From contig JAGAKH010000127.1 of the NCBI GenBank assembly GCA_017625725.1, positions 1 through 60,992 of the forward strand: a DNA stretch of 60,992 nucleotides, read 5' to 3'. A program made the position numbers and the translations under genes. A model generated the notes under the pieces. That model ran no database searches and was not told the origin of the DNA. It was given only the letters and a program-made list of their open reading frames with translations. The stretch is from Bacteroidales bacterium. Its GTDB lineage: Bacteria > Bacteroidota > Bacteroidia > Bacteroidales > UBA932. How positions within the stretch are numbered: position 1 is the stretch's first letter; the number at the start of each line of letters is the position of its first letter. This document shows positions 4,812 to 59,574 of this stretch, in pieces.

Positions 4812-4820
4812 TCTTCAGTC

Positions 4821-5198
4821 ATGAACACATTCACTATTATGCAGACTTCAGCACATGTCCTGGAGAAGAGTGCTGAGATGGCGGCGAAGGATCCTCATGG
4901 ACTGATCATCACATTAGTTTCAGTATCGGTTGTCTTTTCCGCCCTGATTATCCTTTATTTTGCATACACATTCATCGGCAAGGCAATAGGTTTCGACTTC
5001 AAAAAGATAATGTCGGGGCTTCAGGCCAGAAAGCGAAAAGCCGGACCGACGCATGAAGAGGCAGCTGCAATCGCCCTTGCCCTTGACCAGGAAATGAATG
5101 GTGAGGTTTACGCTGCCATCGGCATGGCGATGGACCGTTATCTGAATGACACGGTCCATGACAACGAAAGCTACATAATCACCATCAGAAGGAAATGA
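4821..5198 (+). CDS. OadG-family decarboxylase gamma/delta subunit
   Basis: A 125-residue protein with one strong transmembrane segment (around LIITLVSVSVVFSALIIL, residues 34-52) followed by a basic cytoplasmic tail. It matches the small subunits of Na+-translocating decarboxylases (OadG/MmdD), which hold the carboxyltransferase and the membrane pump together. It starts 9 bases after mmdA and precedes the biotin carrier, the usual order. The initiator could also be the Met eight codons in; sequence alone does not decide. Confidence 0.8.
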   Translation: MNTFTIMQTSAHVLEKSAEMAAKDPHGLIITLVSVSVVFSALIILYFAYTFIGKAIGFDFKKIMSGLQARKRKAGPTHEEAAAIALALDQEMNGEVYAAIGMAMDRYLNDTVHDNESYIITIRRK

Positions 5199-5227
5199 CG
5201 TAAAACCATCTGTCAATTATAAGAAAC

Positions 5228-5665
5228 ATGAAAACATATAGATTCAAGATCAACGGCAACGAATATAATGTAGCTGTCAATTCCGTATCAGGAAACATGG
5301 CTGAAGTCAATGTAAACGGAGTAGCATATCAGGTGGAAATGGAGGATATGCCGACTGCACCGGTTCAATCGATTCCGGCAGCACCGGTTTTATCATCTCC
5401 TGTCCAGCAGGTTCAGCCTGCCCAACAGGCAGCCGCACCTGCGTCCGGAGCAGGCAAGAAGATCACTTCTCCACTTCCGGGAGTAATTGTAGCCCTTAAG
5501 GTCAATGTAGGTGACAAGGTAGCGGCAGGACAGGAAGTCGCTGTACTTGAAGCCATGAAGATGGAGAATTCCATCGAGGCTGAGACTCCGGGAACAGTGA
5601 CTGCAATCCATGTAGCCAAGGGGGATTCCGTTCTTGAAGGAGCACCTATCATCACCATCCAATAG
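5228..5665 (+). CDS. mmdC: Biotin carboxyl carrier subunit of the decarboxylase
   Basis: A 145-residue protein. The N-terminal 45 residues form a small beta module, followed by a Pro/Ala/Gln-rich flexible linker (about residues 46-75) and a C-terminal biotinyl domain with the classical EAMKMEN motif, whose Lys is biotinylated. It carries the carboxyl group from MmdA to the membrane subunit MmdB. The swinging linker is typical. It lies 29 bases after the OadG-like gene and 70 bases before mmdB, in one transcription unit. It lacks a biotin carboxylase domain, consistent with a decarboxylase carrier. Confidence 0.92.
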
Positions 5666-5735
5666 TCTGCAGGTTTCCCGGCCGAAAGTGAAGGAGAAGG
5701 CCGTAAACCACGTCACACACATAAACTGGTTATAG

Positions 5736-6878: not shown

Positions 6879-6944
6879 ATATCATAACTGATAATTCGAG
6901 AAAATGTTGTATCTTAGCAGGTTTGAACGAATCCGCTAAGAAAG

Positions 6945-44368: not shown

Positions 44369-44396
44369 AAGTGCTTACCCGAAAGGATAAGCACTT
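44369..44396 (-). terminator. Bidirectional terminator between endonuclease and lipoprotein operon
   Basis: AAGTGCTTA and TAAGCACTT pair over 9 bases, with an inner CC(C)GAAAGG part. Read on the minus strand it is followed by TCTTTATG, so it can end the long operon whose last stop is at 44406; it can also end the endonuclease gene. Confidence 0.6.
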
Positions 44397-44405: not shown

Positions 44406-46439
44406 CTAGCGATATAAGACATCGAATTTATACACATATGTTCGTATTCCTGATGCCGCATATTCGTATTCAATTGTAAAATAGCCATTGGTGTTACCGG
44501 ATGACTCCATGACAGCATTGATACTTGAAGTATAAGATTCATTGGCGTCCAATCCTGAATAATAAAGGTCACTGGTGTTGGTGTCGGTCAATGATATCTG
44601 CAATTTAGGCTTGCCTATATTGAAGTCATTTCTTCTTATATCAGGCTGGACCTGAACATTGACATTGCCCGGAAGATAGAAGGCCGGTGACTTGATTTTA
44701 GGATATTTTGCAGCTGAATAATACATATTGACACGATCACCTTCCCATGATATATTTCCGTTAACAGCGGACCAGCCATTGGAAGTTGTCGGCGGAGCAG
44801 CCCTATGCGGAAGGCCGGTGACATGATGCGTATTCCTGCCACTTGTAACCGTCTTACCATCGAAAGTAAAGGCAACCTGATGAGTATGAGAAGCCCAACC
44901 CAATGTGATATCCTGATAGAAATAATTATAATCCCAGGAGTCAACAGTGCTGGTACGACCGGAAGCATCGCCATCGATATATATTGCAATGGTCTTCAGG
45001 TAGTTGGTGTTCTTCATCAGATTTGTCGAAATGTTCCAGCTTGCACCTGCATTATAAAGCAGCGAAGGATTACAATTGTTGGCTCCCCTCTCGCCATTTA
45101 AATCCCTGGTAATTCCGTTAGTGGCAGCATACTTGTCATATGATGTATATGCACTGAGTGCCAGGCTGAAATCAGGTGTAGAAGGTACGGCAAGGGCAAG
45201 ATCTGTAAAATCAAATGTCTCTCCGTCGATTGTTGCTGAAGCTTTGACTATATACTGTTCCTGTCCTCCTACAGGCAGATAAGGCCAGCCTGTGGTGGAT
45301 GTGATTGCAGAACCGTCGGAGGTGCCGATAGATTTTTCCGAACGAAGGACAGTGCCGTCTGCTTTGCAGACATCAATTTTCCAGCTCTGTATAGCATTCT
45401 TTACAGCTGTGGACTTGGCGAATGTGGATATTACATCCGTACCGTCAAGCTCACCGGAAGTGAATGTGTGTGCTGAAGTAACTGAAAATCCGTCAACCTG
45501 AGGAGTGACCTTTACCACAGGACTCACCAAGGCACCTACACGGGCACGGACCTGATACTCGGTCTTAGGAGTAAGTCCCTTTATCACATGCACCCCATTC
45601 TCGGAAACCGCTTTGGCCGGAGCACTCCAGTCTGACGATGAAGATGGAATGGCTTCATATACCACTGCCGCCTGATTCTCAGCTGATATGTTTCCGCTGA
45701 AAGAAGCAGGAGTTGTGATAAAGATACGTGATGCCCATACATCATTGGCATTGAGTGACAATGTGATGGCCGGCCAGTCGGTGGTCTCCTGTCCACATGT
45801 CAGCCTGTAAGCCGCCTTCGGAGAAGGTGACTTCAGAGTGTATGAAAGGGTGGTCTTCCTGTCAGCCGAGTTCTTTCCTTCCAATGAAAGCACCAGATCT
45901 GCTCCCGAAGGCACATAAAACCACTGTCCATATGCAGCCTCATAGGCATCTCCGTTCAAGATGATCCGCTCCGGTGTAAAGTGCTCAGCCAATTCATCAG
46001 ACACTGTCACATTCACCAAGGAATTTGCCAGAGAAACGGACAAGACCGGAACCTCGTCGGAGAGAACTCCGATCGTGCCGGAAGCTTTTCCCATGAAGTA
46101 AGGTGCACCGAAGCCATTTTCCCCAGCATATGCCTCTATAGAATAGGTTCCAACCGGGAGAACCAATGGTTCAGTCCACAGACCGTCCGCATCATATTTG
46201 ACTTTGCCATCCTTGTCCTTCACTATAAAATGCATTTCCGAATGAGCTGGTGCCTCTATATTGAAATCAATGGCTTTGGTCTGAGTCAAGTCTTCAACGA
46301 CCACATCAACCTCAAGCTTAGGGGCATCAAGATAACCGACCTCAGCAGGCTGAGGCAGTTCCATCTCCACACAAGCCAAAAGAGCACAGGCAGAAAGAAA
46401 AAAGACTACTGTTTTATTTATGTTATTACGATTTAACAT
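44406..46439 (-). CDS. DUF4493 lipoprotein with long C-terminal extension
   Basis: A 677-residue lipoprotein (lipobox LLAC, Cys23), last gene of the eleven-gene operon. A DUF4493 domain covers about residues 36-215: strand KLEVDVVVED, then LTQTKAIDF with the Lys55-Ala56 dipeptide, LPVGTYSIEAYAG and LANSLVNVTVSDELAEHF. An Fn3-like segment follows (about 275-315, KGLTPKTEYQVRARVG), then about 350 residues of unrecognised beta-rich sequence rich in Thr, Ser, Asn and Tyr. As the largest and most distinct member it may be the tip or adhesive subunit; that is inference from the domain plan. Confidence 0.75.
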   Translation of the reverse strand: MLNRNNINKTVVFFLSACALLACVEMELPQPAEVGYLDAPKLEVDVVVEDLTQTKAIDFNIEAPAHSEMHFIVKDKDGKVKYDADGLWTEPLVLPVGTYSIEAYAGENGFGAPYFMGKASGTIGVLSDEVPVLSVSLANSLVNVTVSDELAEHFTPERIILNGDAYEAAYGQWFYVPSGADLVLSLEGKNSADRKTTLSYTLKSPSPKAAYRLTCGQETTDWPAITLSLNANDVWASRIFITTPASFSGNISAENQAAVVYEAIPSSSSDWSAPAKAVSENGVHVIKGLTPKTEYQVRARVGALVSPVVKVTPQVDGFSVTSAHTFTSGELDGTDVISTFAKSTAVKNAIQSWKIDVCKADGTVLRSEKSIGTSDGSAITSTTGWPYLPVGGQEQYIVKASATIDGETFDFTDLALAVPSTPDFSLALSAYTSYDKYAATNGITRDLNGERGANNCNPSLLYNAGASWNISTNLMKNTNYLKTIAIYIDGDASGRTSTVDSWDYNYFYQDITLGWASHTHQVAFTFDGKTVTSGRNTHHVTGLPHRAAPPTTSNGWSAVNGNISWEGDRVNMYYSAAKYPKIKSPAFYLPGNVNVQVQPDIRRNDFNIGKPKLQISLTDTNTSDLYYSGLDANESYTSSINAVMESSGNTNGYFTIEYEYAASGIRTYVYKFDVLYR

Positions 46440-46450
46440 CTATCTATAGT

Positions 46451-47236
46451 TTAATTATACTCAAACGAGCCTCCTTCTGAAGGATCGACAGTGATGGTCT
46501 CATAGAGGTCATCACAAGTGTAATCGACCACAATTTCAGGCTTGCCGACCGTTCCGTTCTGCTGACTCATTCTGAATGTCAGATGAAGGTGGGTAGCGGG
46601 CTGGAGCATCTTGTTACCGGTTATTGTCATCGGCTCGTTTCCAATTTTATAGGTACCGGTGAAAACATAGTTGAGTGCGACTCCACTGTTAAAATATCCG
46701 ACAGCCGGGTTCTCCCCTTGCGTGTTGGACGGAGTATATTCAAGTTTGCGGCTCTCATCAGTATAGAGAGTTATTGAATAGTCTGTGAAGTGCTTGTCTA
46801 TATTTTCTCCAAATACTACAGAGACAGCAGTATTGACCATAGTACAGGTGATGCTGTACTGTGTAGGATTGAGCCCTGCGACAACTTCCTTCTGCTGGGA
46901 AGTGCCCGCATATCTCACCTGACCCCATCGGTCAGGCAAGGTAAGAGACTCAGTCTCTGTAACATTATCGGCAGATACGGTGTAGAATCCTACCGGTACA
47001 GTAATAACAGAAGGCATATCCTTATAGATATACGTAAACACAGCATCTTCTGAACTCACATAAACATTGAAGTCGTCAACGCTGACCTGGTCATCGTCTG
47101 CCCTGGTAAGGACCTCGACAACAGGAGAATTCTCCAGAAAGAGACTGAGTCTTCCTTCAGTCTCCTTCTGAATGATACTCTTCTGGCAAGCCAGCACCAA
47201 AAGCGACATCAAAGCAATTATATATAATTTCTTCAT
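46451..47236 (-). CDS. DUF4493 lipoprotein, single-domain type
   Basis: A 261-residue lipoprotein (lipobox LLVLAC, Cys17) that is a DUF4493 domain and little else. After the strand GRLSLFLEN comes VEVLTRADD with Arg45-Ala46, then VTVPVGFYTVSADN and ITCTMVNTAVSVVFGENIDKHF, the domain's core signatures. The start at 47236 (MKKLYIIAL) is 5 bases after the upstream stop; an in-frame ATG nine codons earlier would overlap that gene. It is a candidate structural or shaft subunit, together with the next three genes. Confidence 0.78.
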   Translation of the reverse strand: MKKLYIIALMSLLVLACQKSIIQKETEGRLSLFLENSPVVEVLTRADDDQVSVDDFNVYVSSEDAVFTYIYKDMPSVITVPVGFYTVSADNVTETESLTLPDRWGQVRYAGTSQQKEVVAGLNPTQYSITCTMVNTAVSVVFGENIDKHFTDYSITLYTDESRKLEYTPSNTQGENPAVGYFNSGVALNYVFTGTYKIGNEPMTITGNKMLQPATHLHLTFRMSQQNGTVGKPEIVVDYTCDDLYETITVDPSEGGSFEYN

Positions 47237-47241
47237 ATCCG

Positions 47242-48117
47242 CTATAATATATCTATAATACAATCAATCATCGTGGCATCATCGATGCGGGTATCCACCT
47301 GGATGACAGGAAGACCGGCAGTGCCGCCAACAACAGCGTCACCATCTTCAGGGTCAATGAATTCCGTATAGGAATCACTTCCCATCTCTCCATCAACGAT
47401 GACACCTGGTCCGATAAGACCATTATGATTGCTCTTGATTGTGATTTTTGCCCATTTGGCTGGGAAAAGCGTCATCGGAGAAGACGAATTGGTGTATGTC
47501 AATCTCTTCTCAGACTCTGTTCCCTCGGCCACTGTACCGTGAATGGTATATATAAGTTGAGTACCGGTCTGCGGAACGTTGAAATAAACGTCCGTAGGTG
47601 CATTAGCCTGGCTGCTTGTCATCGAGACAGATCTTGTAGCCTCGACATCCACCGTAACATTACTGAAGTCTTCCAGGAAGCTTTCATCGAATGTCAGAGT
47701 GACCTTGCCATTGACCATTGTACATTTTACGGTAACTTTCTCTACCTCCTGGGACATCACAGCCACCTGTTCGGAGACTCCATAATATCGGGCACATCCG
47801 AATCCGGAGGCTGCTGCATCCTCCATGCAATTCTGAGCTGAAACAGTGTAATCACCATATGGGATAACGACTTCGTCAGGCATGGATTCATATACAAACT
47901 GCTCCGTAGCATAAGTCTGTCCCAGGAAAGTAGTTCCGTATATATCTACCAGAAATTTACTGCAATCTACAGCATCTGCCTTAGTATCGACCACAATCTC
48001 CTGATCTGACGACAATGCAAGCGATATGGTGCCCATTCTCTGAGGCTCCATCACCACTTTATTGCAGGCAGATGCAGAAAAGAGGATCAATGTTATATAT
48101 AAGGCTGATCTACGCAT
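47242..48117 (-). CDS. DUF4493 lipoprotein, single-domain type
   Basis: A 291-residue lipoprotein (lipobox FSASAC, Cys18). DUF4493 pattern: GTISLALSSDQEIVVDTKADAV-like start with Lys46-Ala47 (here VDTKADAVD), VVIPYGDYTVSAQN and VKCTMVNGKVTLTFDESF. The C-terminal tail adds about 35 residues of acidic and Ala/Gly-rich sequence (FIDPEDGDAVVGG). It follows the next upstream gene by 5 bases. It is one of four short paralogues in a row. Confidence 0.78.
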   Translation of the reverse strand: MRRSALYITLILFSASACNKVVMEPQRMGTISLALSSDQEIVVDTKADAVDCSKFLVDIYGTTFLGQTYATEQFVYESMPDEVVIPYGDYTVSAQNCMEDAAASGFGCARYYGVSEQVAVMSQEVEKVTVKCTMVNGKVTLTFDESFLEDFSNVTVDVEATRSVSMTSSQANAPTDVYFNVPQTGTQLIYTIHGTVAEGTESEKRLTYTNSSSPMTLFPAKWAKITIKSNHNGLIGPGVIVDGEMGSDSYTEFIDPEDGDAVVGGTAGLPVIQVDTRIDDATMIDCIIDIL

Positions 48118-48122
48118 AATGA

Positions 48123-48908
48123 TTACTCACTGACTACAGTAGTACCCTGAAGCGGGTCAATAGTCTCTGAAAGTTCAATAGTTTCAGATATCTGACCATC
48201 AACTACGATTTCAACAAGAATATTACCGTTGGTCGAAGAATTTGAGAAATTGATCTGAGTCCACTTCTTGGCAACTGTTGTTGTTGCTTCAGGGTCAGTA
48301 TATGTCTTTTTGGTATCGTTTGCAAGAGTCACGGTAAGTGTCCATGTGATAGTCTTTCCAGCAGAATAATAAGCACCATTCTCTTCTGCATGGCCCCAGG
48401 CCATAGGAAGGGCACGAGTGCCGTCTGTAATGGTTATCTCTGCAGTTTTGAAGACACCTTCTGTAAATGTATTTGCAACTGTTACCCTTGAGTTCACAGC
48501 TTCGCATGGAACTGATACAGAGTTATCAATACCTGCCTTCACTGTCACATCAGCACTTCCTGCTACTCTGACAGCTCCTTTTTCAAGTGCTGGTGCCGCT
48601 TCATCTTCAGTAAGGTTTTCTACGTATAAAGTATATGTTCCTGCCGGTTTCTTAAGGTCGTCTGTGGTGATTTCAGAATATTCCTTTGACCACAATTCTG
48701 TCTGTCCCTGCTTAAGAGTAACATTATAGTCTGCCAACTGATCAGCTGTCATTACTGTACCAGCCTTAGTCACTACCATCTCAGTGTCAGCTGTGATGCC
48801 GAGGTTGATGAATCCGTAGTCGTCTGCAGGAGATGAAGTCTCGATGATTGATTTGTTGCAAGCTGTCATTGCTACAAGGGCAGCAGCGAGGATGATTGTC
48901 TTTTTCAT
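48123..48908 (-). CDS. DUF4493 lipoprotein, single-domain type
   Basis: A 261-residue lipoprotein (lipobox VAMTAC, Cys17). After GFINLGITADTEM comes VVTKAGTVM with Lys48-Ala49. The core signatures LKKPAGTYTLYVENL and VPCEAVNSRVTVANTF follow, then a Thr-rich C-terminal sandwich half (VTLANDTKKTYTDPEATTTV). Thr and Ala content is high. The 48-base gap before this gene is the longest within the operon and contains AT-rich sequence, but I see no clear internal promoter. Confidence 0.78.
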   Translation of the reverse strand: MKKTIILAAALVAMTACNKSIIETSSPADDYGFINLGITADTEMVVTKAGTVMTADQLADYNVTLKQGQTELWSKEYSEITTDDLKKPAGTYTLYVENLTEDEAAPALEKGAVRVAGSADVTVKAGIDNSVSVPCEAVNSRVTVANTFTEGVFKTAEITITDGTRALPMAWGHAEENGAYYSAGKTITWTLTVTLANDTKKTYTDPEATTTVAKKWTQINFSNSSTNGNILVEIVVDGQISETIELSETIDPLQGTTVVSE

Positions 48909-48956
48909 AATGGTTATAAATCTTATTTGTTGTTTTTAATATTGTCTTAATTGAAA

Positions 48957-49733
48957 TTATAGATATGGATTGAATTCTTCAGGTACTTCTGTAAGATCAT
49001 TGATCTGAGTGTCGACTTTCAAAGACGGCATCAGCTGACCGTTATCGAGATTAACCTTTACCATAAGAAGGAGATTGTCCTTGGCCTGAAGAGTTCTGGT
49101 CTTGGTAATCTCCACGGCTTTGTTAATTCCATTCGCTGAGAATGTACCGGAAATAGTGTATGTGAGCTGCGATGGATTGAACCATGTCTCGGTCACAACT
49201 CCTGTTTCAGTCTCAGTGATGACAATCGGTTTTTCCCTCGTGGTACCTCCTGAAAGAGAAACCTGAAGTCCGGTAAAACGGTTCTTTACAGACTCGTCAA
49301 ACTGTACAGACACTTTTGCGTTGACTACATTACAATTGACTGTTGCAGTCTGAAAAAGAGCATCAGCTGTAAGGGAGACTTTATCACTTCTGCCGTAGAG
49401 GCGCATCTTGCCTTTTCCTTCTTCAGCAGCAGCTTCAGAACAGTCCTCCGCTGTCACATAATAGTCTCCAAGTAAAAGTTTCTGAGCTTCAAAATCAGAA
49501 TAGGATGATTCATACTTCAAAACTTCTGCAGAATCGTAGATACGTACCATGTATCCCGCTGCCTCCGGATCCGTCGGTTCAAGAGTCTCAGCAGCCTTGC
49601 TGACGACCTCTACTGTCGGCTCTCCGGAAAGAGTGACAGAAAGCTCGCCATACATGTCAGGCGTATCTACCTTCTTTGTGCAGGCAACTGTCAACAGTGA
49701 CAGTGCTGCAATGGTTAAGATCTTATTCTTCAT
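48957..49733 (-). CDS. DUF4493 lipoprotein, single-domain type
   Basis: A 258-residue lipoprotein (lipobox LLTVAC, Cys18). GELSVTLSGEPTVEVVSKAAE carries Lys46-Ala47 in VVSKAAET. It then shows LLLGDYYVTAEDC and VNCNVVNAKVSVQFDESV, and a C-terminal half with LMVKVNLDNGQL. It lies 14 bases after the PCMD gene. It is a paralogue of the three following genes, and the set suggests repeated duplication. Confidence 0.78.
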   Translation of the reverse strand: MKNKILTIAALSLLTVACTKKVDTPDMYGELSVTLSGEPTVEVVSKAAETLEPTDPEAAGYMVRIYDSAEVLKYESSYSDFEAQKLLLGDYYVTAEDCSEAAAEEGKGKMRLYGRSDKVSLTADALFQTATVNCNVVNAKVSVQFDESVKNRFTGLQVSLSGGTTREKPIVITETETGVVTETWFNPSQLTYTISGTFSANGINKAVEITKTRTLQAKDNLLLMVKVNLDNGQLMPSLKVDTQINDLTEVPEEFNPYL

Positions 49734-49747
49734 AACAATAATATTGG

Positions 49748-51379
49748 TTACAATAAATTTTCAAAAAACTGGCGGTGTTCATCTTCTGTAAGTTGGGTCG
49801 GATCATAGATAAGTTCGAACTCATCCAGTTTGAGAACAGAGCCCTTTCCACCTGTAAAATAGTCCCCGTAACGACTGGCCGCCCCCACTATCACGATATA
49901 CTTCGGTGTCCTGTCATTCCTGTACACCAGAGGAATGGAAAAACGGACATATTCCGGATCCGTATCTGAAGAAGTGAGGGAGCCATGCGCAATGATGTGC
50001 TTATCATTGGCAAAGTCAACAAAAATCTTCTTGGATGTGTTGATATGGAAGCGGTCAGGCCAGTCTGTCAGCAATATCTGAATCTGACATTCATCCGACT
50101 GGCCCATAAGTCCCTTATATGGATCTTTAGCCATATCTATTGACTTCGGAGCATACTTGTAATAGCCACGAAGAGCCAGAGGACGGGAGCTGAACGGATA
50201 TCCCCAGTCAAGTTCGGCACCAAGACCGGCTATCTTTCCGAAATGACCTACATATATATTGCCTGCTGCAAGCATGCCCAACGCCGTCATAGTCTCAAGA
50301 CGTGCAGCCTTACCCTTCACCACATCGGCTTCCTCAGGTCGGGTCGGCACGATTCCCAAGCCTGCCGTTCCCGGATTGGCAGAATCCCAGACTTCGGCAG
50401 CACCGGATGCAGACGGCATCCATGCAGAACCGTTCATATGCCAGTCATCGAAGCTGAGGTTGGATAAGGTCTCGGCAATGCCGGTAGTAAATGCAATTTC
50501 AGCTGAAGTTTCAACTCCATTTGTGACACGGGCCATATAGGTAGTGTTCTCTTCCAGACCTGTAATCTCCGCAAAGACTGAGGTACCGGTAACAGTGAGA
50601 TCTTCCCAAACTGTCCAATCCGAATCAGAATCCTTACGATATTCTATCAGAGGGGTACCCTGTCCGTCAGTAGTTCCTCTTACAAATGCAGAACAGGTCC
50701 AAGGATCCACACCAGCTATCGAGACTGCTACTTTCTTCTGAAGGAACTTGACCGACCACTCGATCATCTGGCCTTCGTACTCGACATTGAAGTATCTCAT
50801 TATGACACAGTCAAGGGTCATCGGAAAACTGCAATCTTCGGTCTTAGGTATGCTTTGGCCGCTCTCAGAAAGAAAACCGATGGTAGAAACTATCACCGAG
50901 CCTTCCGGCTCAAGCTTCATGTCTGTGATCACAACACTTTCAAGAGGCTGGTTTTCAGTAACATATACAATAGCCTGCTTCCTTATCGGGTCAATATCCG
51001 GTTCTCCAGTCTGATTATCACATCTGATATATCTCTCAATCGGCTGAGTAGCGGCTATCCTCCACACGACATCCTTATATATCCTGAGAGTGATGTTTAC
51101 CGTGTCCCTAAGGTCAAGATATTCAGGCATTCCGTCCACCACTTCTGCATCATGAGCTGTGACGTAAGAAAGCACTTTCACCTTGGACAGATCTGCGTTT
51201 TCTCCCATTACCACACTCACGACGCATGAATCCTTGTCAATGGCGACAGACTTCTGACCCTCGAATTCAATTGAGAGCAACTCGGGTTCCAGTGCAGGAT
51301 ATGACAAGTCATTCTCTATGCAGGAACAGATGAGAAGCACAGAAAATAGAGGAACAATATATGTCAAAATCTTTCTCAT
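49748..51379 (-). CDS. PCMD-domain lipoprotein without DUF4493
   Basis: A 543-residue lipoprotein (lipobox LLICSC). The N-terminal about 220 residues are beta-rich but not DUF4493 (LLSIEFEGQKSVAIDKDSCV), and the basic-Ala dipeptide is missing. An Fn3-like segment follows (about 225-300, ITGLEENTTYMARVTNG), then the C-terminal PCMD domain from about 305 (SNLSFDDWHMNG, GSVLKLDEFELIYDPTQL). PCMD is named a putative carbohydrate metabolism domain, a jelly-roll-like fold found on Bacteroidota surface proteins. Its start overlaps the previous stop by 4 bases (ATGA). It is closely related to the PCMD of the protein at 52207-54393. Confidence 0.8.
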   Translation of the reverse strand: MRKILTYIVPLFSVLLICSCIENDLSYPALEPELLSIEFEGQKSVAIDKDSCVVSVVMGENADLSKVKVLSYVTAHDAEVVDGMPEYLDLRDTVNITLRIYKDVVWRIAATQPIERYIRCDNQTGEPDIDPIRKQAIVYVTENQPLESVVITDMKLEPEGSVIVSTIGFLSESGQSIPKTEDCSFPMTLDCVIMRYFNVEYEGQMIEWSVKFLQKKVAVSIAGVDPWTCSAFVRGTTDGQGTPLIEYRKDSDSDWTVWEDLTVTGTSVFAEITGLEENTTYMARVTNGVETSAEIAFTTGIAETLSNLSFDDWHMNGSAWMPSASGAAEVWDSANPGTAGLGIVPTRPEEADVVKGKAARLETMTALGMLAAGNIYVGHFGKIAGLGAELDWGYPFSSRPLALRGYYKYAPKSIDMAKDPYKGLMGQSDECQIQILLTDWPDRFHINTSKKIFVDFANDKHIIAHGSLTSSDTDPEYVRFSIPLVYRNDRTPKYIVIVGAASRYGDYFTGGKGSVLKLDEFELIYDPTQLTEDEHRQFFENLL

Positions 51380-52197
51380 TGCCTGTTCTTCATTCTTGCC
51401 TTCTTGCTATGAGGGCCTGTGTAAAAGTAAAAACATGTTCCTATCTCGATAGCAAGCGGATTGATGCGGAAGTTCGCACCACTTGTCTGCATGCTGCTAT
51501 GCTCCACCTGATTCCTTATCTGCTCATTATAATTGTAGTTTATACCCAATACACCGATTGCGACCTCGACTGCGACATTATCATGAGCAAACACACAGAT
51601 GCCAGGAACACACATCAGAGCCCCTTTGTAGGTAATCTGATAAGTACCGAACTTGTCAGTCCCGTCCTCTTTCCACATCTTAGACTGTCCATATGCACCG
51701 GTTGCCCTCACTTCAGCAAATATCGCAAAACGTTTGCTATTGGCGATGGACATATAATAGCGCATTGTGACAGAGCCGCTCGCCATATGCTTAAGCATAT
51801 GATAGTCCGAGATACCGAATGACATATCGTCTCCCAATGAGAGTGCGGCATTGCCCAGATCCAAAGATGAACGGTCGTAGTCAAAGCGGGCACCTACAGA
51901 CAGATTATCAGCGACAAAATATGAGAAATGGGGAGCAAGTCCGAATGTGTACATGCTGCCGCTCAAGCCTCCTACAAGGTCAAAGAGCATCGAGTATCCT
52001 GAATCGTCAGAGGTATTGCCAAGATCAACAGTATTGTAGGAGAAGTTTACTCCTGTTCCTATAGTTCCTTTAGGTACAAAGACTGTATTTGACACACCTA
52101 TACCCCTATCGAACGGCTCGACAGGCTTCTTTTCAGAGCCTGCCCAGCTGTTCGCAGCAATGCATATCAATAGCGATATTATAAGGATTCTCTTCAT
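51376..52197 (-). CDS. Outer-membrane beta-barrel protein of the lipoprotein operon
   Basis: A 273-residue protein with a cleavable signal peptide (IAANSWAG) and alternating hydrophobic strands throughout (GTGVNFSYNTVDLG, YTFGLAPHFSYFVADNLSVGARFDY), ending in a basic tail. It is probably an 8-12 stranded barrel. No lipobox is present, so it is the second integral outer-membrane component next to the DUF3575 protein. It could anchor or help export the lipoproteins. It is coupled to the following PCMD gene by a 4-base overlap. Confidence 0.75.
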   Translation of the reverse strand: MKRILIISLLICIAANSWAGSEKKPVEPFDRGIGVSNTVFVPKGTIGTGVNFSYNTVDLGNTSDDSGYSMLFDLVGGLSGSMYTFGLAPHFSYFVADNLSVGARFDYDRSSLDLGNAALSLGDDMSFGISDYHMLKHMASGSVTMRYYMSIANSKRFAIFAEVRATGAYGQSKMWKEDGTDKFGTYQITYKGALMCVPGICVFAHDNVAVEVAIGVLGINYNYNEQIRNQVEHSSMQTSGANFRINPLAIEIGTCFYFYTGPHSKKARMKNRQ

Positions 52198-52206
52198 AAT
52201 TGCATA

Positions 52207-54393
52207 TTAGAATGGACTTACTCTGCTGAACACTTTATTATATTCATCCGTAGTAAGTTCAGCCGGATCATATACAAGTTCGAATTCATCAATGTACAGC
52301 ACACTTCCGACACCACCTGTAAAATAATCTCCATAACGGCTGGATGCTGCTGCAATCACAAGATAATTAGGTATTCTTGTCGCATCACGGTATACCAGAG
52401 GCAAAGTAAATTTCACATAACCGGCATCAGTGTCGGATGAATTGAGCTGACCAAGAGCAATGATGCCTGGATCGTTATCCAGATCCACAAACTCCTTGCT
52501 GCTGGTATTGATCCTGAACTGGGATGTCCAGTCTGTAAGGAACACCACAATCTGAGACTGGTCCATCTTTCCCTTCATATCAGTATAAGGAGCCTTAGCC
52601 ATATCAATTGTCATTGGAGAATATTTATAATATCCTCGCAGGGCGATAGGACGACCTGAGAATGGTGTACCCCAATCCAGCTTGGCTCCAAGTCCGGCAA
52701 GTCCGGCAAACTGTCCGGTAAAGATATTTCCGGCTGCCATCATACCCATTGCCTTCACTGATTCCAGACGGGCCGCTTTTCCGCTCACTGCCTCTGACAC
52801 CGGTTTGGTGGTGACAGCTGCTCCGGATGAATTGGCAGAATCCCAGATATCATATCCTGAGGCGTTAGGATACTTGTCACTATCTGACCATGAATCAAAA
52901 TTGAGATTATGGATAGTGGCATATGCTGCTGTAGAGAAGGTGATTTCCTTGGTTTCCTTGTCTTCTGCAGAGACTGCACGGAAGACATACTGGGTAGAAG
53001 GAGCAAGTCCGAATACAATGGTTGTATATCTGAGAGATGCAGAATTCACCTGAACTTCAGCCGGATTGATTTCTGTCCATTCGGCCTCAGATGCCTTCCT
53101 GTATTGGAATGTCATTCCTTCCGGTACTTCAGGAGAGAAATAACGTCCCTCAAGCTTTGCGAAGCAAGCCCATCCTGTATATGCTGCCACAGCCTCGGCA
53201 TCAACATCAGAAATCACTTCCAGAACAAGTTCGAATACATCATAGTGACCTTTGACGTCGATTACGGTGAAATCTACCTCATATCTGCCGACAGGAAGCT
53301 TTGAAACAAATCCCGTGATATCCATGAGAACTCCCTGGGCACCTGCAGATACGGCCTTTGTTCCCATCATCTGACTCACGAGGACCCCCACTGAAGAAAT
53401 ATCTGCAGCAGAAGTTCCGACGAGTTCGACAGATCTTGGAAGACCTGATTCCTCGAGAACGACATTATCGTGAGCGACACGAAGACTCTGCACTCCGGCC
53501 GGAGTACTGAACTCCAGAACCTTGCTGATTGTATTGCCTACAGGGATATTCACAGGCTCACCGGACTCGGCTGCAAATTCGTCATTAGCAGACACAGAAG
53601 GCAGGAGTCTGTTGTCAAAGTCCAGAATAAGTTCATGTGAGGACTCATCCATGGTGTTGTCAAGAGTCACCTTGACTACGAATGCACCTTCAGCAGTCAC
53701 ATCCTCACCAAGATTGAACTTCAGGTGATAGTGCTGCCTTGCCTTTACATCGGAATACGTAACAGTATGACGGTACTCTCCACCTTCTATATTCTTGAGA
53801 TACAAGTTCCAGGTAAGTGTTCCTGTAGGTGCAAAATAAGCCTTGGAATCAAAGCCAGCCTCAAGTGTGTTTCCTGCTGCAGGCGAATTGCTCAACACAA
53901 GAGGATTGCCCGTTCCGTTGGTCACAGACACTTCATACACATCAAAATATTCTTCAAACTCCTCTGGAAACTCAACAGAGAATATCGTATTGGCAAGAGT
54001 ACAGGTAAGGTTTACCGTATTGATCTTATCAGGGTATATCCTGACATTCTTTACTCCTCTATAAAAAGGGTTGTCAAAAGCCGCATTCAGGTCTTTTCCA
54101 TTACTTGCGACTACATCGTAGTATCCGATCTGAAGTCTGATCGGATTTTCGGTCGTAACCGTGCGATGATCTTCTACTTTTGCTACAGATTGGCCCGATG
54201 CATTGATTACATCGACTGCAAAGACAAGATTGTCTGCTGTTCCCGACTTTACTATGAAGTCGGATGACGGATCATTATCCATCTTCAGGCCAAGATATCC
54301 ATAGCTGTTGTCCTGAATGATTTCCTGGTTACAAGAAATAAGGACACCTGCAGAAAGCATGACCATCATTATATATGAAAGTCTTCTTTTCAT
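52207..54393 (-). CDS. DUF4493-middle-Fn3-PCMD multidomain lipoprotein
   Basis: A 728-residue lipoprotein (Cys21, GVLISC). DUF4493 about 30-265 (YGYLGLKMDN, LQIGYYDVVASNG, LTCTLANTIFSVEFPEEFEEYF), a middle beta domain about 270-400, an Fn3-like domain about 410-490 (FGLAPSTQYVFRAVS) and a PCMD domain about 495-728. At the position of the Arg/Lys-Ala dipeptide it has Lys49-Ser50 (IVKSGTAD), the only exception among the eight. I start at 54393 (MKRRLSYIMM), where a signal peptide begins; the open frame extends 11 codons further. The PCMD is nearly collinear with that of the protein at 49748. Confidence 0.8.
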   Translation of the reverse strand: MKRRLSYIMMVMLSAGVLISCNQEIIQDNSYGYLGLKMDNDPSSDFIVKSGTADNLVFAVDVINASGQSVAKVEDHRTVTTENPIRLQIGYYDVVASNGKDLNAAFDNPFYRGVKNVRIYPDKINTVNLTCTLANTIFSVEFPEEFEEYFDVYEVSVTNGTGNPLVLSNSPAAGNTLEAGFDSKAYFAPTGTLTWNLYLKNIEGGEYRHTVTYSDVKARQHYHLKFNLGEDVTAEGAFVVKVTLDNTMDESSHELILDFDNRLLPSVSANDEFAAESGEPVNIPVGNTISKVLEFSTPAGVQSLRVAHDNVVLEESGLPRSVELVGTSAADISSVGVLVSQMMGTKAVSAGAQGVLMDITGFVSKLPVGRYEVDFTVIDVKGHYDVFELVLEVISDVDAEAVAAYTGWACFAKLEGRYFSPEVPEGMTFQYRKASEAEWTEINPAEVQVNSASLRYTTIVFGLAPSTQYVFRAVSAEDKETKEITFSTAAYATIHNLNFDSWSDSDKYPNASGYDIWDSANSSGAAVTTKPVSEAVSGKAARLESVKAMGMMAAGNIFTGQFAGLAGLGAKLDWGTPFSGRPIALRGYYKYSPMTIDMAKAPYTDMKGKMDQSQIVVFLTDWTSQFRINTSSKEFVDLDNDPGIIALGQLNSSDTDAGYVKFTLPLVYRDATRIPNYLVIAAASSRYGDYFTGGVGSVLYIDEFELVYDPAELTTDEYNKVFSRVSPF

Positions 54394-54412
54394 GATTACA
54401 AGCTTTGGATAT

Positions 54413-55759
54413 TTATTCAGTAACAAATGTCAATGTCTTCGAGAATGTCTTGCCGGCCTCGTCAACAATGTCCAAGGTAAAGTTGTGCTTATCACCTGAT
54501 GCCGGTCCGAACATAGAAATCATATTGATGAATTCTGTAAGGAAGAAATCGACCTGTGTCTTTCCTGAAAGGTTTGTACCTGTAGGAAGTGCAGGGGCAG
54601 CTTCAGCAAGGAATGCGATAAGTCCCTCATCTGTAATGAGATTCATTGTTGCACTGCCATCCGAAGTAAGTCCCTCTATGGCAGCAGTAAGCTGAGGTGA
54701 GTCTACCGTCACTTCGAACTCCGCTATCTTTCCAGGTACTGAAATGACCATATCAGCATTCATATCTGCATTTATAAGCATATCCTCGCAAGAAGGATTG
54801 GCATCCCATGTAATCACCGCAACTGGCTGCTCCACTTCGCCTCCTGTGTTATCATCACCGGTATTGTCATCTCCTGTGTTGTCGTCACCTGTGTTATCGT
54901 CGCCAGACGAAGGGTCATCTCCAGGAACAGGCACCTCATCAAAACCAGGAACAACGACAGTCTGGTCAATAGGATTGACATCGTGGCTGATGGTGATCTT
55001 GATAGGTTCCTTGATGACATTGCCATTCTCATCAACATCACCAAGCTGACCCGTAACCTTTGCATCGATATTGAGGATATGGTGATCGGCCGGATTTACA
55101 TCCTCGATGAACTTGGTTGCTGAAGCATAAGTGTTGTCTATAGCTCTATGACCGTCGATAGTCACTGTAAGCGGAGCAGTGGTGAACCATCCTGTCTGCT
55201 TTCCTGTGTAATAAGTCTTTCCATCTATGACTACAGGATCGAAATCATTATCCTGAGCGGTCTTGTTCCACATAAGGGTTCCTTTGCCGTTAGTGACGGT
55301 AACAGTGTAATGAGCAAGCTCTTCCACGAAGTTTGACGAAAGGTTGACTGTAACCTTTGTGTTTGTGATAGAGCAGATCACATCTATTGTGGTAACCTGT
55401 CCGGTAAGGATCTTGAAGTCTTTCGAACCCTCATATATAGGCTGCTCGAATGCAGCGTGCTCCTTCACCGGAGATGAAACTGTAAGGATGTAGTCTCCTG
55501 AGCCGAGCTCGACAACTTTTCCACGAATGGAGCTGAAAGGATTATAATTCACTGACCAGTTGTCATAAGGACGTCTGATATCAACAACAAGATTGTTGAT
55601 GATTTCATCGTCAGTAGCCCTTGTCTCCACCTCGTTGAGATCAGACTTGCACGAAAGATCGATTTTGAGTGAGCCTGAGCCATTCTGCTCGATGACTTCA
55701 CGGTTGCAGCCGGTGAATACTGCAGCTGCAGTTATTATTGAGAAAAATATCTTTTTCAT
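54413..55759 (-). CDS. DUF4493 lipoprotein with GDDNT-repeat linker
   Basis: A 448-residue lipoprotein (Cys18, AVFTGC). DUF4493 about 28-255: GSLKIDLSC, then NEVETRATDDE with Arg47-Ala48, VELGSGDYILTVSS and VICSITNTKVTVNLSSNF. An acidic low-complexity linker follows (about 285-310) with GDDNT four times in tandem, and then a C-terminal beta domain (about 315-448) that resembles the middle domain of the DUF4493-PCMD proteins on both sides. I start at 55759 (MKKIFFS), which gives a good signal peptide; an ATG 8 codons earlier overlaps the preceding gene by 8 bases. Confidence 0.78.
   Translation of the reverse strand: MKKIFFSIITAAAVFTGCNREVIEQNGSGSLKIDLSCKSDLNEVETRATDDEIINNLVVDIRRPYDNWSVNYNPFSSIRGKVVELGSGDYILTVSSPVKEHAAFEQPIYEGSKDFKILTGQVTTIDVICSITNTKVTVNLSSNFVEELAHYTVTVTNGKGTLMWNKTAQDNDFDPVVIDGKTYYTGKQTGWFTTAPLTVTIDGHRAIDNTYASATKFIEDVNPADHHILNIDAKVTGQLGDVDENGNVIKEPIKITISHDVNPIDQTVVVPGFDEVPVPGDDPSSGDDNTGDDNTGDDNTGDDNTGGEVEQPVAVITWDANPSCEDMLINADMNADMVISVPGKIAEFEVTVDSPQLTAAIEGLTSDGSATMNLITDEGLIAFLAEAAPALPTGTNLSGKTQVDFFLTEFINMISMFGPASGDKHNFTLDIVDEAGKTFSKTLTFVTE
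54840..54912 (-). repeat. Imperfect 15-bp tandem repeats coding GDDNT
   Basis: Four to five imperfect 15-base units, about GGTGATGATAACACA in coding sense, encode (GDDNT)4 preceded by GDDPSS. The copies differ at silent positions, so they are not very recent. Repeat number could vary between strains. Confidence 0.7.
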
Positions 55760-55775
55760 TGTGTTGTAAATTTTT

Positions 55776-57977
55776 CTATTCATAAATAAGTTCTATATCA
55801 TCGAGTTTGAAGAATGAGCCGGCGTGTGCCTTGACTGTTTCTTCACCGAGTCTGAATTTTGAATCCGTATCCACGTGGCCGTTGCCATAGCATGAACTGA
55901 AACGGACATAGATGCTCGCAGCCTTCTTATCGAAGACCTTATATTCAAACGGAAGTGAATACAATGTCCATGAGTCTGCTGACGGGCCGGATGTTTCCTG
56001 TGCGGTCGCCAGAACAGTACCGTCTGCAGCCTTTACCCAAGCATCTACAAAGAACTTGTCCCCGTCTGTCGGAGCATATTTATAATAGAATGTAAGTCTG
56101 GACGGACGACTTGCAAAAGCGTGGCCTTCAGTAGCATGGTTTCCATCTCCATCGGATGTTCCGATCCAGATTTCGCCCTCATATGTTGTGCCGCTCGCCA
56201 CTCCGATAGTATTGTTATTGTATCCGGTGTTGGCACTTCCCACATTGACAGTAAATAACAATGCTGCCTTATTACCGCTATGACGGTCATCCACATAGCC
56301 GGAAGAAGGGAAATTCTTACACCAGGTTGCGGTCAGCATGGTATGGCCGTCAGGCATAGACTGAAGGCTATTACATGCCCACCAAGGGTCTGCTTCACCT
56401 GATGCATAAGGCAGATACCAGTTTCTGTCATATTTGCTTCCTAACGGAGATACCCTCTTGACCACAAGCTGATAGTCCTCAAATCCTGAGTTTCCTATCT
56501 GCTGTGCAGCTTCCGTAGTAACTGTCACTATAGGGCTCTTGCAGTCCTCGTTCTTGTTATAGATAGCCCTCACCTTATATGTTGTGGACGGTGCGGTCGG
56601 GATTGTACCATAATTCAACGTATAACCGTCAGTTGAAGGGATGACATCAATATCTGACCAGTTCACACCATCAGAAGTTACCTGGAAATCCACCAGGGCA
56701 GGAACACCTTTACTGATAGTAACAACCGGATCCACAACCTTGGCGGCCCACACATTATAATCCTTTATATCAAGAGTAACCTTTACTCCACCGGATACTA
56801 CTCGGAATGATTCCTCTGCTTCCTTGCCTACGGCATCCACTACCTTGAGAGTAAATTCAGCCAGAGTCATATCATCAGACTTAGCCTTTACTGAAGAAAG
56901 CATATCAGCAATTACTCCTGTAAAATCCACGTAAGAGAACGTCCTTGATGTAGCCATTTCTTCATCCCATTCAAATCCATTAGCCTTAAGCAAAGCCTTC
57001 GTATTTGAATCCAAAGCGGCGAAATCCACTTCAGAAGGAAGACCTTTGGCTGCAAGCATGTCTGAATCAATTGTAAGATAGCAGTGTGCGAGAGACCCAC
57101 GTGCCAGGAAACTTGCCATACCGCTATGTCCTGCAGCATCCTGACCCTCAACAATTTCGTGAGTATTGCCAGTGCCGTCGAATCCTGCAAGAGTGATGGA
57201 TGGGGCATCCTGAGGAACAATTGTAGCTGGAATCTCGATAGTCTCGGTCTTATCCTCTACTGTGGTATCCACTGTGATGTTGATTACAAGATTTCCCTCC
57301 CGATTATCTGTCGTAATAGTATACGTAACGAAATCATTTGGGGCATACACCATAGGATCCGTCTTGAAGTACTTCACTGTACCGGCATCATCCACTTCGG
57401 CATATACTTCCAGGACGACTTCACCGCCTGGCATATATCCGCACCGAGTCTCATTCGCATTAAATCTGACATACTTGCCCTTATGGTCATTATGTCTTAC
57501 AATTGCATAATAGTCAGCATAATTTTCCTTGACTGTATCATGAAACTTGACAGCCATCTTCACATTAGCAAGTTTCGCCACAGCCTCAACGGTGTTTATA
57601 CCGGCTCTAATAGTGAAATCCTTGTCAGCAAGATAATAAGCCTTATTGAATCCACATCCGAGGGTATCGCCATGCTGTGCTACAAGGCGGTAGTCTCCTG
57701 CATTGAGCTTGATTTCCTTACCGACTGTGTTGGCGTATGAGTCGTTATAAAGACGCATCTGAGTCTCATCTTTATAGATGGCAACTCTGAAGTCTTCCAA
57801 GACAGGCTCATCCGCATCGGCCTTGGTTCTGATATTCTCTGTCTGCAGATCGCTCGTCAAGGCTATGGAAAGTACTCCTACCTCATCCGAAGCAGAAGGT
57901 CCTTGTTGTTCAATAAGCCTTTCCGAACACGCCGACAAGATCACCAGCAAGGTTGGAATGAATCTTAAACGTCGCAT
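55776..57977 (-). CDS. DUF4493-middle-Fn3-PCMD multidomain lipoprotein
   Basis: A 733-residue lipoprotein (Cys17, LLVILSAC). DUF4493 about 34-260: VGVLSIALTSDL, then NIRTKADADE with Lys52-Ala53, LNAGDYRLVAQHG and ANVKMAVKFHDTVKENY. A middle domain about 265-405, an Fn3-like domain about 410-500 and a C-terminal PCMD domain about 505-733 (SGFEDYQLVV, GSFFKLDDIELIYE) follow. The PCMD is more diverged than those at 49748 and 52207, so it is an older paralogue. It lies 13 bases after the DUF3575 gene and is the first lipoprotein of the operon. Confidence 0.8.
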   Translation of the reverse strand: MRRLRFIPTLLVILSACSERLIEQQGPSASDEVGVLSIALTSDLQTENIRTKADADEPVLEDFRVAIYKDETQMRLYNDSYANTVGKEIKLNAGDYRLVAQHGDTLGCGFNKAYYLADKDFTIRAGINTVEAVAKLANVKMAVKFHDTVKENYADYYAIVRHNDHKGKYVRFNANETRCGYMPGGEVVLEVYAEVDDAGTVKYFKTDPMVYAPNDFVTYTITTDNREGNLVINITVDTTVEDKTETIEIPATIVPQDAPSITLAGFDGTGNTHEIVEGQDAAGHSGMASFLARGSLAHCYLTIDSDMLAAKGLPSEVDFAALDSNTKALLKANGFEWDEEMATSRTFSYVDFTGVIADMLSSVKAKSDDMTLAEFTLKVVDAVGKEAEESFRVVSGGVKVTLDIKDYNVWAAKVVDPVVTISKGVPALVDFQVTSDGVNWSDIDVIPSTDGYTLNYGTIPTAPSTTYKVRAIYNKNEDCKSPIVTVTTEAAQQIGNSGFEDYQLVVKRVSPLGSKYDRNWYLPYASGEADPWWACNSLQSMPDGHTMLTATWCKNFPSSGYVDDRHSGNKAALLFTVNVGSANTGYNNNTIGVASGTTYEGEIWIGTSDGDGNHATEGHAFASRPSRLTFYYKYAPTDGDKFFVDAWVKAADGTVLATAQETSGPSADSWTLYSLPFEYKVFDKKAASIYVRFSSCYGNGHVDTDSKFRLGEETVKAHAGSFFKLDDIELIYE

Positions 57978-57990
57978 AATAAATATTTGG

Positions 57991-59424
57991 TTAAAAATCT
58001 TGATTTACTTTTCTTACATTGAAACGGTAGGTCAGATTGATTCCGGCACGTGTGATACCGAAATGATGGTTTGCCTGATGTTCGACAAGCATCCAGGAAT
58101 TACCGCTAAGCGAAGCCTTATTCTGCGAATATCGGCCATATCCCAGACCGATCACAAATTCAAGTCCCCAATTCTTTTTTGGTCCGAATCCGACTACATA
58201 GCCATATGTAAGTCCGACGCTCCAGGCTGGATGCATGTTGCCGGAATCGTGGTAATTGCCTTCCCACACATTTTCAGGACCGTTCTGATAAAGGAAGTCT
58301 TTCCATTGTAATGTATACCATGTGCAATTACCATGTACTCCGAGGAAACTTCCTGTGCGCATGGCATCGTCCTTCCACCATCTGAGTTCAGGTGCAAAGC
58401 CATAAACACTGGTATTCTTATCATTCGGAGTAAATATATTGTATCTGGTCATCCATCCCTGGATGTCAAGAGAGAGATTTCTGCTCAACTGCACTTCCAC
58501 ACCGACCTGCGGTATCACCATGGCATCTGCCAGAAGATTGGTTTTCAGGCCCATATACCAAGGAGTATCCCAGACCCTGGTCATTCTTTCCAGACTTTCT
58601 TTCCTATAGGATTCATATGGGTCACTCTGAAGCGGCTTCTGATCGGCTTCCGGAATGCAGACCATCTCCTTTACCATATACACAGTGTCCCTTACATACA
58701 CGGTATCTGTTGTTGACACAGGAACATGCTGGACTTCTGGCTTTTGTACAGGCTTGGCTACTGGTTTGGCTACTGGAACTTCCACTGGCTTGGACATGTA
58801 AGGTTTACCAGGATCCCATTTGCAGAATATTGCGAAACGTACGCAGCGTAACTTAGGGAAAAAGTCATCCAGAAGGATACGCCAGGCACGACCGCCATCA
58901 AGCTGCTGAAGTGCCTTCTTTCTTTCTCCCCATTCCTTCGACTTGATAATGCTCATGACACTGTATTTGTACGGCATATCAGACTCTGCAACCAACTCAT
59001 AGAGTCTGTCCCAGTCTTCGTTCAGGCTTTCACTATGAATCTTATACGACGGAATGTCAAGAATATCCATGAGATACTTTGCCGCTGCATCTGTTCGTGC
59101 CTGACTCAGTTTGACGTTATCGCCCCACAGACCGTCCGGAGAGGCACTTCCGCAAACATAAATCTGCATGACCTCCTTTGTCGGATCATTCATTATCTGC
59201 AGCAGCTCATAAGCCGCCATGTTGAACTTGGGATAATTTGCCAAAGAGGCTACACCTTGAGGGAGCCTTATAGAGGTCAGTACACTATCAGCATATAGGG
59301 CCTTGGAACCAAGGTCTTCAGGGTGAACATATCTGAGATAGGTCTGTGCCGACGAGATGGTACCGGTCAGCATACCGCATAATGCGATCAGCAGCATTAA
59401 CTGCTTCCTAATGTCTATTTTCAT
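57991..59424 (-). CDS. OmpA-like / DUF3575 outer-membrane protein
   Basis: A 477-residue exported protein (signal peptide around LMLLIALCGMLTGTISSA). An OmpA-like peptidoglycan-binding segment spans about 70-185 (YVCGSASPDGLWGDN, LSQARTDAAAKYL), a Pro/Val/Lys repeat linker about 205-230 (KPVEVPVAKPVAKPVQKPEV) follows, and the C-terminal 190 residues are a DUF3575 beta-barrel (MGLKTNLLADAMVIPQVGVE, RAGINLTYRF). DUF3575 proteins commonly accompany FimA/Mfa1-type fimbrial loci, where they are thought to sit in the outer membrane. It is the first gene of the operon. The start at 59424 (MKIDIRKQL) gives the signal peptide; the frame extends 25 codons upstream through the promoter. Confidence 0.85.
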   Translation of the reverse strand: MKIDIRKQLMLLIALCGMLTGTISSAQTYLRYVHPEDLGSKALYADSVLTSIRLPQGVASLANYPKFNMAAYELLQIMNDPTKEVMQIYVCGSASPDGLWGDNVKLSQARTDAAAKYLMDILDIPSYKIHSESLNEDWDRLYELVAESDMPYKYSVMSIIKSKEWGERKKALQQLDGGRAWRILLDDFFPKLRCVRFAIFCKWDPGKPYMSKPVEVPVAKPVAKPVQKPEVQHVPVSTTDTVYVRDTVYMVKEMVCIPEADQKPLQSDPYESYRKESLERMTRVWDTPWYMGLKTNLLADAMVIPQVGVEVQLSRNLSLDIQGWMTRYNIFTPNDKNTSVYGFAPELRWWKDDAMRTGSFLGVHGNCTWYTLQWKDFLYQNGPENVWEGNYHDSGNMHPAWSVGLTYGYVVGFGPKKNWGLEFVIGLGYGRYSQNKASLSGNSWMLVEHQANHHFGITRAGINLTYRFNVRKVNQDF

Positions 59425-59447
59425 TTGGTCAAGAATCTTGTAACTTG

Positions 59448-59477
59448 CAAAGTTGATATTTTTTTTCAAAAAATCAA
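59448..59477 (-). promoter_or_regulatory. Promoter of the eleven-gene surface operon
   Basis: Read on the minus strand: TTG (59477-59475), a 19-base spacer and CAACTTTG (59455-59448), one mismatch from TAnnTTTG. The spacer contains runs of six T and eight A. The ATG at 59424 is 23 bases downstream. Confidence 0.55.
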
Positions 59478-59574
59478 AAGATTCACCTTTTAAAAGCACC
59501 CTTCAAGCAGATGCAGCGATGACTGCGGCTTTGCAGCGGAAGATACAAAGAGAGGCAAGATTCCCAACCCCGGA

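Follow-up and report, generated by a model that had tools for sequence, protein, structure and literature searches.

The operon described here is best compared with three described systems, the type V pili of Porphyromonas gingivalis (FimA/FimB/FimC-E and Mfa1-5), proteins with a PCMD domain such as BT2081, and the fimbrillin-like proteins of Mfa_like_1 (PF13149). As set out in portions of two reports (PMC4789730, PMC5789003), type V pilins lose their lipidated first strand by cleavage at an Arg on the following loop, and relatives carry Lys at the cleavage position. In P. gingivalis fimbrial proteins the cut falls after an Arg at positions 43-54 and a Lys mutant is also processed (from a section of PMC4789730), and a Trp before the C-terminal strand is common in type V shaft subunits (from a section of PMC5789003). 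For BT2081, part of the published account (PMC2954218) reports a pocket with conserved aromatic residues and proposes that Asp259 and Asp338 are the catalytic pair, a role not proven biochemically. The operon in question lies in a 60,992-nucleotide stretch of a Bacteroidales bacterium genome (GCA_017625725.1, contig JAGAKH010000127.1; hereafter the window) and consists of eleven genes, k to a, all on the minus strand (59424-44406), with intergenic spacings of -4 to 48 bases (13, 16, 19, 9, -4, 14, 48, 5, 5 and 11 in the order k to a, taking 55759 as the start of gene i). The source genome is 80% complete, in 129 contigs. Among named records it is closest to metagenome assemblies entered as “Bacteroidales bacterium” and Candidatus Cryptobacteroides, which suggests an uncultured member of the Bacteroidales similar to these. 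No description of this operon type was found in the papers searched. The operon is a real, conserved type, and it is somewhat probable that its proteins form a type V-like surface fibre or tip complex in which PCMD domains serve as binding modules.

The eleven products were assigned by a Pfam scan of the ten proteins a to j and a separate scan of k, with cut-offs of 27 bits for DUF4493 (PF14900), 28 for PCMD (PF13201), 21.2 for Mfa2, 21.1 for DUF3575 (PF12099) and 27.2 for OmpA (PF00691). DUF4493 passed its cut-off in a, b, c, d, e, h, i and j, that is in eight of the nine lipoproteins, and PCMD in f, h and j. Fn3-type Pfam matches were sub-threshold in f and h and absent from j at E 0.1, and a profile of our own detects this domain in all three. 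The i genes of other loci have the same DUF4493 + MID architecture according to our own profiles, and an NCBIfam scan of the ten proteins gave no match above cut-off. An earlier reading made from the sequence alone (the sequence-only reading) had described the same genes; their coordinates, order, strand and gaps were reproduced, and its nine lipoproteins all carry a lipobox Cys, called by pattern rather than by a trained predictor. Its module scheme held for the eight DUF4493 and three PCMD proteins and had to be amended elsewhere: f has an N-terminal domain of its own of ~195 residues, which recurs in other loci, and the C-terminal region of a, thought to be unique, recurs in at least ten other fetched proteins, with no match among PDB sequences. 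Of the two barrels that it proposed, k is confirmed as a DUF3575/OmpA-like protein, with the OmpA part below threshold. The product of g has no Pfam family and no PDB profile match at E 1, and since only 9 of 53 relatives match the generic OMP_b-brl model (E <= 0.1, best 3.3e-6), we consider it a likely, unproven outer-membrane barrel.

Conservation of the block was assessed in two samples, one of 40 stretches from 37 genomes (the source genome included) chosen from DUF4493 matches, the other of 76 named loci retrieved by means of an alignment of h, from the best 80 of 509 relatives found. All 116 loci held at least one family gene according to our own profiles, and removal of 11 with shared identical family-protein ends left 105 non-redundant loci. 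These were selected by DUF4493 or by h, so that g and f alone had no part in their choice; h was labelled independently of g in the counts of gene order. A DUF4493..PCMD gene comes next after gene i in 84 places, and in 82 of these the following gene is g, in one or two copies, with g-f following in 80. The four misses are two loci cut by a contig end (L090 and L130), one that ends 1.7 kb past h (L143) and one truly devoid of g and f (L043). Likewise, g precedes f in 89 of 90 cases. The search for the gene order in other Bacteroidales, which the sequence-only reading had proposed, thus shows a conserved block. The commonest exact pattern is X-i-X-g-f, where X is a DUF4493..PCMD gene (39/105 loci, without any DUF4493-only gene), and D-i-h-g-f or D-D-i-h-g-f is found in 12. 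Median spacing per gene pair is 4-22 bases, with outliers up to 668. The complete eleven-gene order recurs in three other genomes (L068, L069 and L082), and shorter versions occur in L075 and L114. All twelve DUF4493-only genes of the three complete operons are closest to the window gene in the same position (39-80% identity, next best at most 38%), so these subunits are specialised and old.

Isolate-named records carrying the block or parts of it are Parabacteroides chinchillae, P. bouchesdurhonensis, Parabacteroides sp. PF5-6, Barnesiella sp. An55, Bacteroides cutis and Muribaculum sp. An289, the last with i-g-f only. DUF4493 itself is present in 37/41 genomes of the genus and 19/198 of the order (15/150 genera), and many members of the genus have a single copy of ~370 residues located elsewhere. 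In one locus (L273) a frame starting near base 1501 seems, by eye, to contain repeated MID-like domains. Gene g was found in 35/295 genomes of the class at E <= 1e-3, with eight candidates scored per genome; only four of these 35, the source genome included, fall below 1e-80, and all belong to the same order. Within the genus, 33 of 61 genomes have g, and the other 28, many of them incomplete, show none. The fixed place of g after i-h pairs and before f would suit a dedicated export or assembly device, with g as the conduit to the surface and the DUF4493 and PCMD lipoproteins as its cargo, all the more as, according to the portion of PMC4789730 that treats the point, the fimbriae of P. gingivalis had no reported usher or fimbrial chaperone as of 2016. 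We consider such a device distinctly improbable: g is short, mostly 240-300 residues, the barrel matches of its relatives are weak, and its absence from so many genomes of the genus makes it hardly a general lipoprotein exporter. A peptidoglycan-tethered, S-layer-like coat held by the OmpA-like k is very improbable. The OmpA-like region at the start of k would speak for it; however, its match is sub-threshold and k with both the OmpA-like and DUF3575 parts occurs in just 10 of the 105 loci. Two further loci (L110 and L129) have a DUF3575 match without the OmpA-like part in front of the core.

The link to pili comes first from DUF4493. To our knowledge, no function has been assigned to this domain, and none of the papers searched names DUF4493, PF14900 or PF13201. 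A DUF4493 profile (342 rows, 106 after filtering) was compared, without signal peptides, with a FimA-type profile whose validity is supported by its match to the solved FimA structure 6jzj (1.2e-22). The two are collinear, with P 9.2e-5 when the latter was built from 31 sequences and P 1.9e-5 (Prob 77, 182 columns) when built from 68, whereas the reversed FimA profile gave P 0.13 and other control pairings 0.0015 to 0.63. The comparison with an Mfa2 profile gave P 3.2e-4, and 0.11 after reversal. An alignment pairing of DUF4493-only with FimA-type proteins at Prob 95.8 still contains the signal peptides and was left out of the evidence. When the DUF4493 profile was run against 363 open reading frames (ORFs) around fimbrillin genes, with the first 30 residues removed, 15 matched at E < 0.05, one being a real DUF4493 gene, versus none for the reversed control, one for the shuffled control and none for flank ORFs (363 each). 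The strongest DUF4493-fimbrillin link is a bridge protein (L236:1318-2259), which matches DUF4493 at 43.8 bits and Mfa2 at 24.1 bits over the same residues, both above cut-off, with a sub-threshold FimA match; by hhalign, it reaches P 1.2e-9 to DUF4493 and 1.3e-8 to FimA (reversed, 0.028 and 0.093). It is the second of two tandem lipoprotein-like genes (L236:388-2259). From these comparisons we conclude that DUF4493 is distantly homologous to FimA/Mfa2 fimbrillins and probably has a pilin-like fold.

A second line of evidence is a possible processing site. A strict motif, [TSVE][KR][AS] located 15-48 residues past the lipobox Cys, was searched in the 297 of 345 DUF4493 proteins that are non-redundant and have a recognised lipobox. 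It is present in 213 of them versus 44.7 expected by shuffling, and in only 19/173 other lipobox ORFs. The simpler T[KR] occurs in all 14 usable FimA-type proteins (of 17 aligned; median offset 29) and in 26/35 DUF4493-only proteins (median 28.5); the median distance of the basic residue from the lipidated Cys is about 28-31 in DUF4493 proteins, compared with 29 in the FimA type. All eight DUF4493 proteins of the window have a Lys or Arg at positions 45-55, within the motif VKS in h. We infer that this site lies in the loop after strand 1. The PCMD protein f behaves differently, with the strict motif in 1 of 87 proteins, fewer than the 13.4 expected, and since it also has no pilin-type domain it is a natural candidate for an uncut anchor. 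A search for the gingipain-type C25 family (PF01364) in the source genome, itself 80% complete, gave no match, and control genomes were equally silent.

The genes found in the company of these operons point in the same direction. A lipoprotein family of ~600 residues stands directly before all ten D-i-h-g-f operons, though not before the two D-D-i-h-g-f ones, and also precedes a truncated operon (L058); its profile agrees with that of the fimbrillin family Mfa_like_1 (PF13149) at Prob 90.5, and among ten members scanned five pass the Mfa_like_1 model and one falls below cut-off. Another member (L069:20990-22198, PF13149 at 34.2 bits) lies ~1 kb downstream of a complete eleven-gene operon and is cut by the locus end. 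In the family of gene a, 11 aligned proteins share a C-terminal region, which is preceded by DUF4493 in six. The other five have no DUF4493 and no Pfam match, and four of them weakly match the N-terminus of the 600-residue family (E 5.7e-4 to 6.3e-3), so that a fimbrillin-like domain seems to take the position that DUF4493 has in the other six. The sequence-only reading had named DUF3575 proteins as companions of fimbriae, and this is borne out: among 34 DUF3575 genes of 13 genomes, 16 have a FimA, Mfa_like_1 or Mfa2 match at most 5 kb away (~1.0 expected), two are near DUF4493 genes only and 16 near neither. In the source genome three of four stand beside fimbrillin genes, the fourth being k. 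One DUF3575 gene of this genome is followed by a tandem array of Mfa_like_1 genes (G000:C122:41150-49844), which resembles an ordinary large fimbrillin cluster. The genome also contains a second DUF4493 gene, coding for a DUF4493-DUF6359 protein of 354 residues; the next gene encodes 875 residues with a FimA-type N-terminal match (6e-21) and DUF4906. The two genes span positions 4064-7749 of locus L067 (G000:C15:26000-39273), and genes that by eye look like SusC/SusD lie further on.

The PCMD domains of h and f match BT2081 (3hbz) and three other Joint Center for Structural Genomics (JCSG) proteins (4jrl, 4het and 3s30), all named putative or hypothetical glycoside hydrolases, in which an Ig/Fn3-like domain is likewise followed by a jelly-roll PCMD. 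The pocket residues of BT2081 were mapped by alignment onto 52 h proteins. The equivalents of Asn200 (Asn in 51), Phe202 and Phe206 (Phe or Tyr in 52 each), Asp338 (Asp in 52) and Phe340 (Phe in 51) are kept, whereas that of Asp259, counted in these same h proteins, is Asp in none, and that of Tyr261 is Tyr in 12. As several putative pocket residues are kept and the Asp259 equivalent lost, the alignment favours binding rather than hydrolysis. The operon also differs from BT2081 in the fusion of h and j to DUF4493. The BT2081 likeness suits a non-polymerising complex for glycan capture, in which the lipoproteins would stay lipidated beside the g and k barrels, DUF4493 would be a static beta-sandwich spacer, and PCMD would bind or process polysaccharide, the role proposed for BT2081. 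The frequent core without a DUF4493-only subunit fits such a complex too. We nevertheless find it somewhat unlikely, as none of the eleven proteins matches a SusC, SusD or glycoside hydrolase family in Pfam, the enriched Lys/Arg site would have no role there, and Asp259 is gone in every h protein of the alignment. A polysaccharide utilisation locus was rejected on the same Pfam result, and a chaperone-usher pilus was discarded with no usher or periplasmic chaperone found among the eleven proteins by Pfam.

Several results weigh against the fibre or tip complex. Pfam finds no Mfa2/FimB anchor (PF08842), usher or protease family among the eleven proteins. The FimA-type alignment has a near-invariant C-terminal Trp, and the DUF4493-only proteins have no conserved one. 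Searched against the PDB, the DUF4493-only profile retrieves no fimbrillin sequence at a threshold as loose as E 10. Profile comparison detects no similarity of DUF4493 to Mfa_like_1 (P 0.28) or to the family of 600 residues (P 0.15), of whose ten scanned members four have no Pfam fimbrillin match. The strict motif is met at five other offsets of the same window length in 26-72 of the 297 DUF4493 proteins, and it is present in only 51/83 h proteins and in only 6/14 FimA-type proteins (2.7 expected). Finally, the authors of the BT2081 study place this protein and its paralogs in polysaccharide utilisation loci (from a portion of PMC2954218).

On the other side, the operon resembles type V pili in that its subunits are lipoprotein precursors, several of them specialised within one operon, with a Lys/Arg that follows the first strand and is as far from the Cys as in type V pilins, a distant homology of DUF4493 to FimA and Mfa2, and a DUF3575 companion gene in these genomes. 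It differs in having DUF4493 in place of the FimA/Mfa models, PCMD, Fn3-like and immunoglobulin-like (Ig-like) modules on its subunits, and a conserved extra barrel, g. Toward Mfa_like_1, the likeness is carried by the family heading 10 of 12 sister operons and by the substitution for DUF4493 in the a family, while direct profile similarity is missing. With neither an Mfa2/FimB anchor gene nor the C-terminal Trp, and with a pilin-like fold that is only probable, we do not claim membership of the FimA/Mfa system. These features would also suit a separate Bacteroidales branch of protease-matured lipoprotein pili, with DUF4493 fibres, glycan-binding PCMD subunits, f as an uncut PCMD anchor and g as the assembly platform missing from the type V picture, which we regard as unlikely. 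The multi-subunit appendage or adhesin with anchor, shaft and tip of the sequence-only reading gains from the conservation of the block, the DUF4493-fimbrillin homology and the processing-site signature; a long shaft is not implied by the core, whose commonest form has no DUF4493-only gene. The appendage itself is something we infer.

If the type V-like fibre or tip complex is correct, DUF4493 subunits would reach the outer membrane as lipoproteins, where a surface Lys/Arg protease would cut the loop and the lipidated first strand would depart, leaving an opened groove that could accept a strand from the next subunit. The products of b, c, d and e may be specialised fibre subunits, and those of i, h, j and a may be end subunits, equipped additionally with Ig-like and PCMD modules, the lectin-like PCMD binding glycans instead of cutting them. 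The product of f would stay lipidated as the anchor, and both g, which lies next to h and f, and the OmpA/DUF3575 protein k would be barrels that aid export or tethering of the complex.

The features of the locus are listed in Table 1. The Bacteroides promoter pattern used for the site scan has three sites on the operon strand versus 2.3 expected; as this number is not above chance, the site before k was weighed solely by its conserved position, 22-24 nucleotides (nt) from the k start in 7 of 10 other k loci. Of 10 other k loci, 8 have a readable leader that differs by no more than one base, and the source genome has one exact match 5' of an ATG. Exact matches in two relatives (L272 and L273) do not precede k-type genes and look like chance. 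Similar stretches, TTCTTAACC, precede j in several k-less loci. The scan yielded 19 hairpins, compared with 11.1 expected from shuffled sequence, and the one after a has the longest stem. Both this hairpin and the promoter-like site are consistent with the single transcription unit proposed by the sequence-only reading. An esterase gene (PF00756, 59575-60393, minus strand) precedes k by 150 bases in the same orientation; a same-strand frame of at least 200 residues within 400 bases upstream of k is present in 1 of 11 k-first loci (L075, where it is unrelated; L068 is cut 245 bases upstream). On the other side lies a convergent gene for a DNA/RNA non-specific endonuclease (PF01223, 43376-44350, plus strand) with a lipoprotein-like N-terminus; its end and that of gene a are 55 bases apart. 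Neither of these flanking genes looks like part of the unit.

Table 1. Features of the eleven-gene operon and its borders in the window, in the direction of transcription
Feature	Coordinates	Strand	Description
Promoter-like site, Bacteroides-type	59448..59478	-	TTTG-19-CAACTTTG, one mismatch, 24 nt 5' of the k ATG
Leader	59426..59438	-	13 bases, AGATTCTTGACCA, immediately 5' of the k ATG
Gene k	57991..59424	-	OmpA-like N-terminal part + DUF3575 barrel; first in unit; PF12099 88.9 bits, PF00691 19.8 bits (below cut-off)
Gene j	55776..57977	-	Lipoprotein DUF4493-MID-Fn3-PCMD; PF14900 118.7 bits, PF13201 39.1 bits; own profiles
Gene i	54413..55783 (alternative ATG 55759)	-	Lipoprotein DUF4493 + MID domain; PF14900 115.1 bits
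Gene h	52207..54393	-	Lipoprotein DUF4493-MID-Fn3-PCMD; PF14900 134.4 bits, PF13201 133.9 bits
Gene g	51376..52197	-	Signal-peptide protein, probable outer-membrane beta-barrel; no Pfam match
Gene f	49748..51379	-	Lipoprotein with own N-terminal domain + Fn3-like + PCMD; lacks DUF4493 and the strict processing motif; anchor candidate; PF13201 141.6 bits
Gene e	48957..49733	-	DUF4493-only lipoprotein; SKA at Lys46; PF14900 86.4 bits
Gene d	48123..48908	-	DUF4493-only lipoprotein; TKA at Lys48; PF14900 83.7 bits
Gene c	47242..48117	-	DUF4493-only lipoprotein; TKA at Lys46; PF14900 112 bits
Gene b	46451..47236	-	DUF4493-only lipoprotein; TRA at Arg45; PF14900 116.3 bits
Gene a	44406..46439	-	DUF4493 + Fn3-like + long C-terminal region; PF14900 54.3 bits
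Terminator-like hairpin	44369..44396	-	12 pairs then T-rich, immediately 3' of gene a

If the preferred reading is true, PCMD would be recast from a putative glycoside hydrolase domain to a probable binding module carried on fibres. The presence of the compact five-gene block j-i-h-g-f in isolate-named records (Parabacteroides, Barnesiella) opens the export and assembly of lipoprotein fibres to test, with g as the first candidate. Finally, DUF4493, which recurs across Bacteroidales without a known function, would gain a testable role as a relative of pilins.

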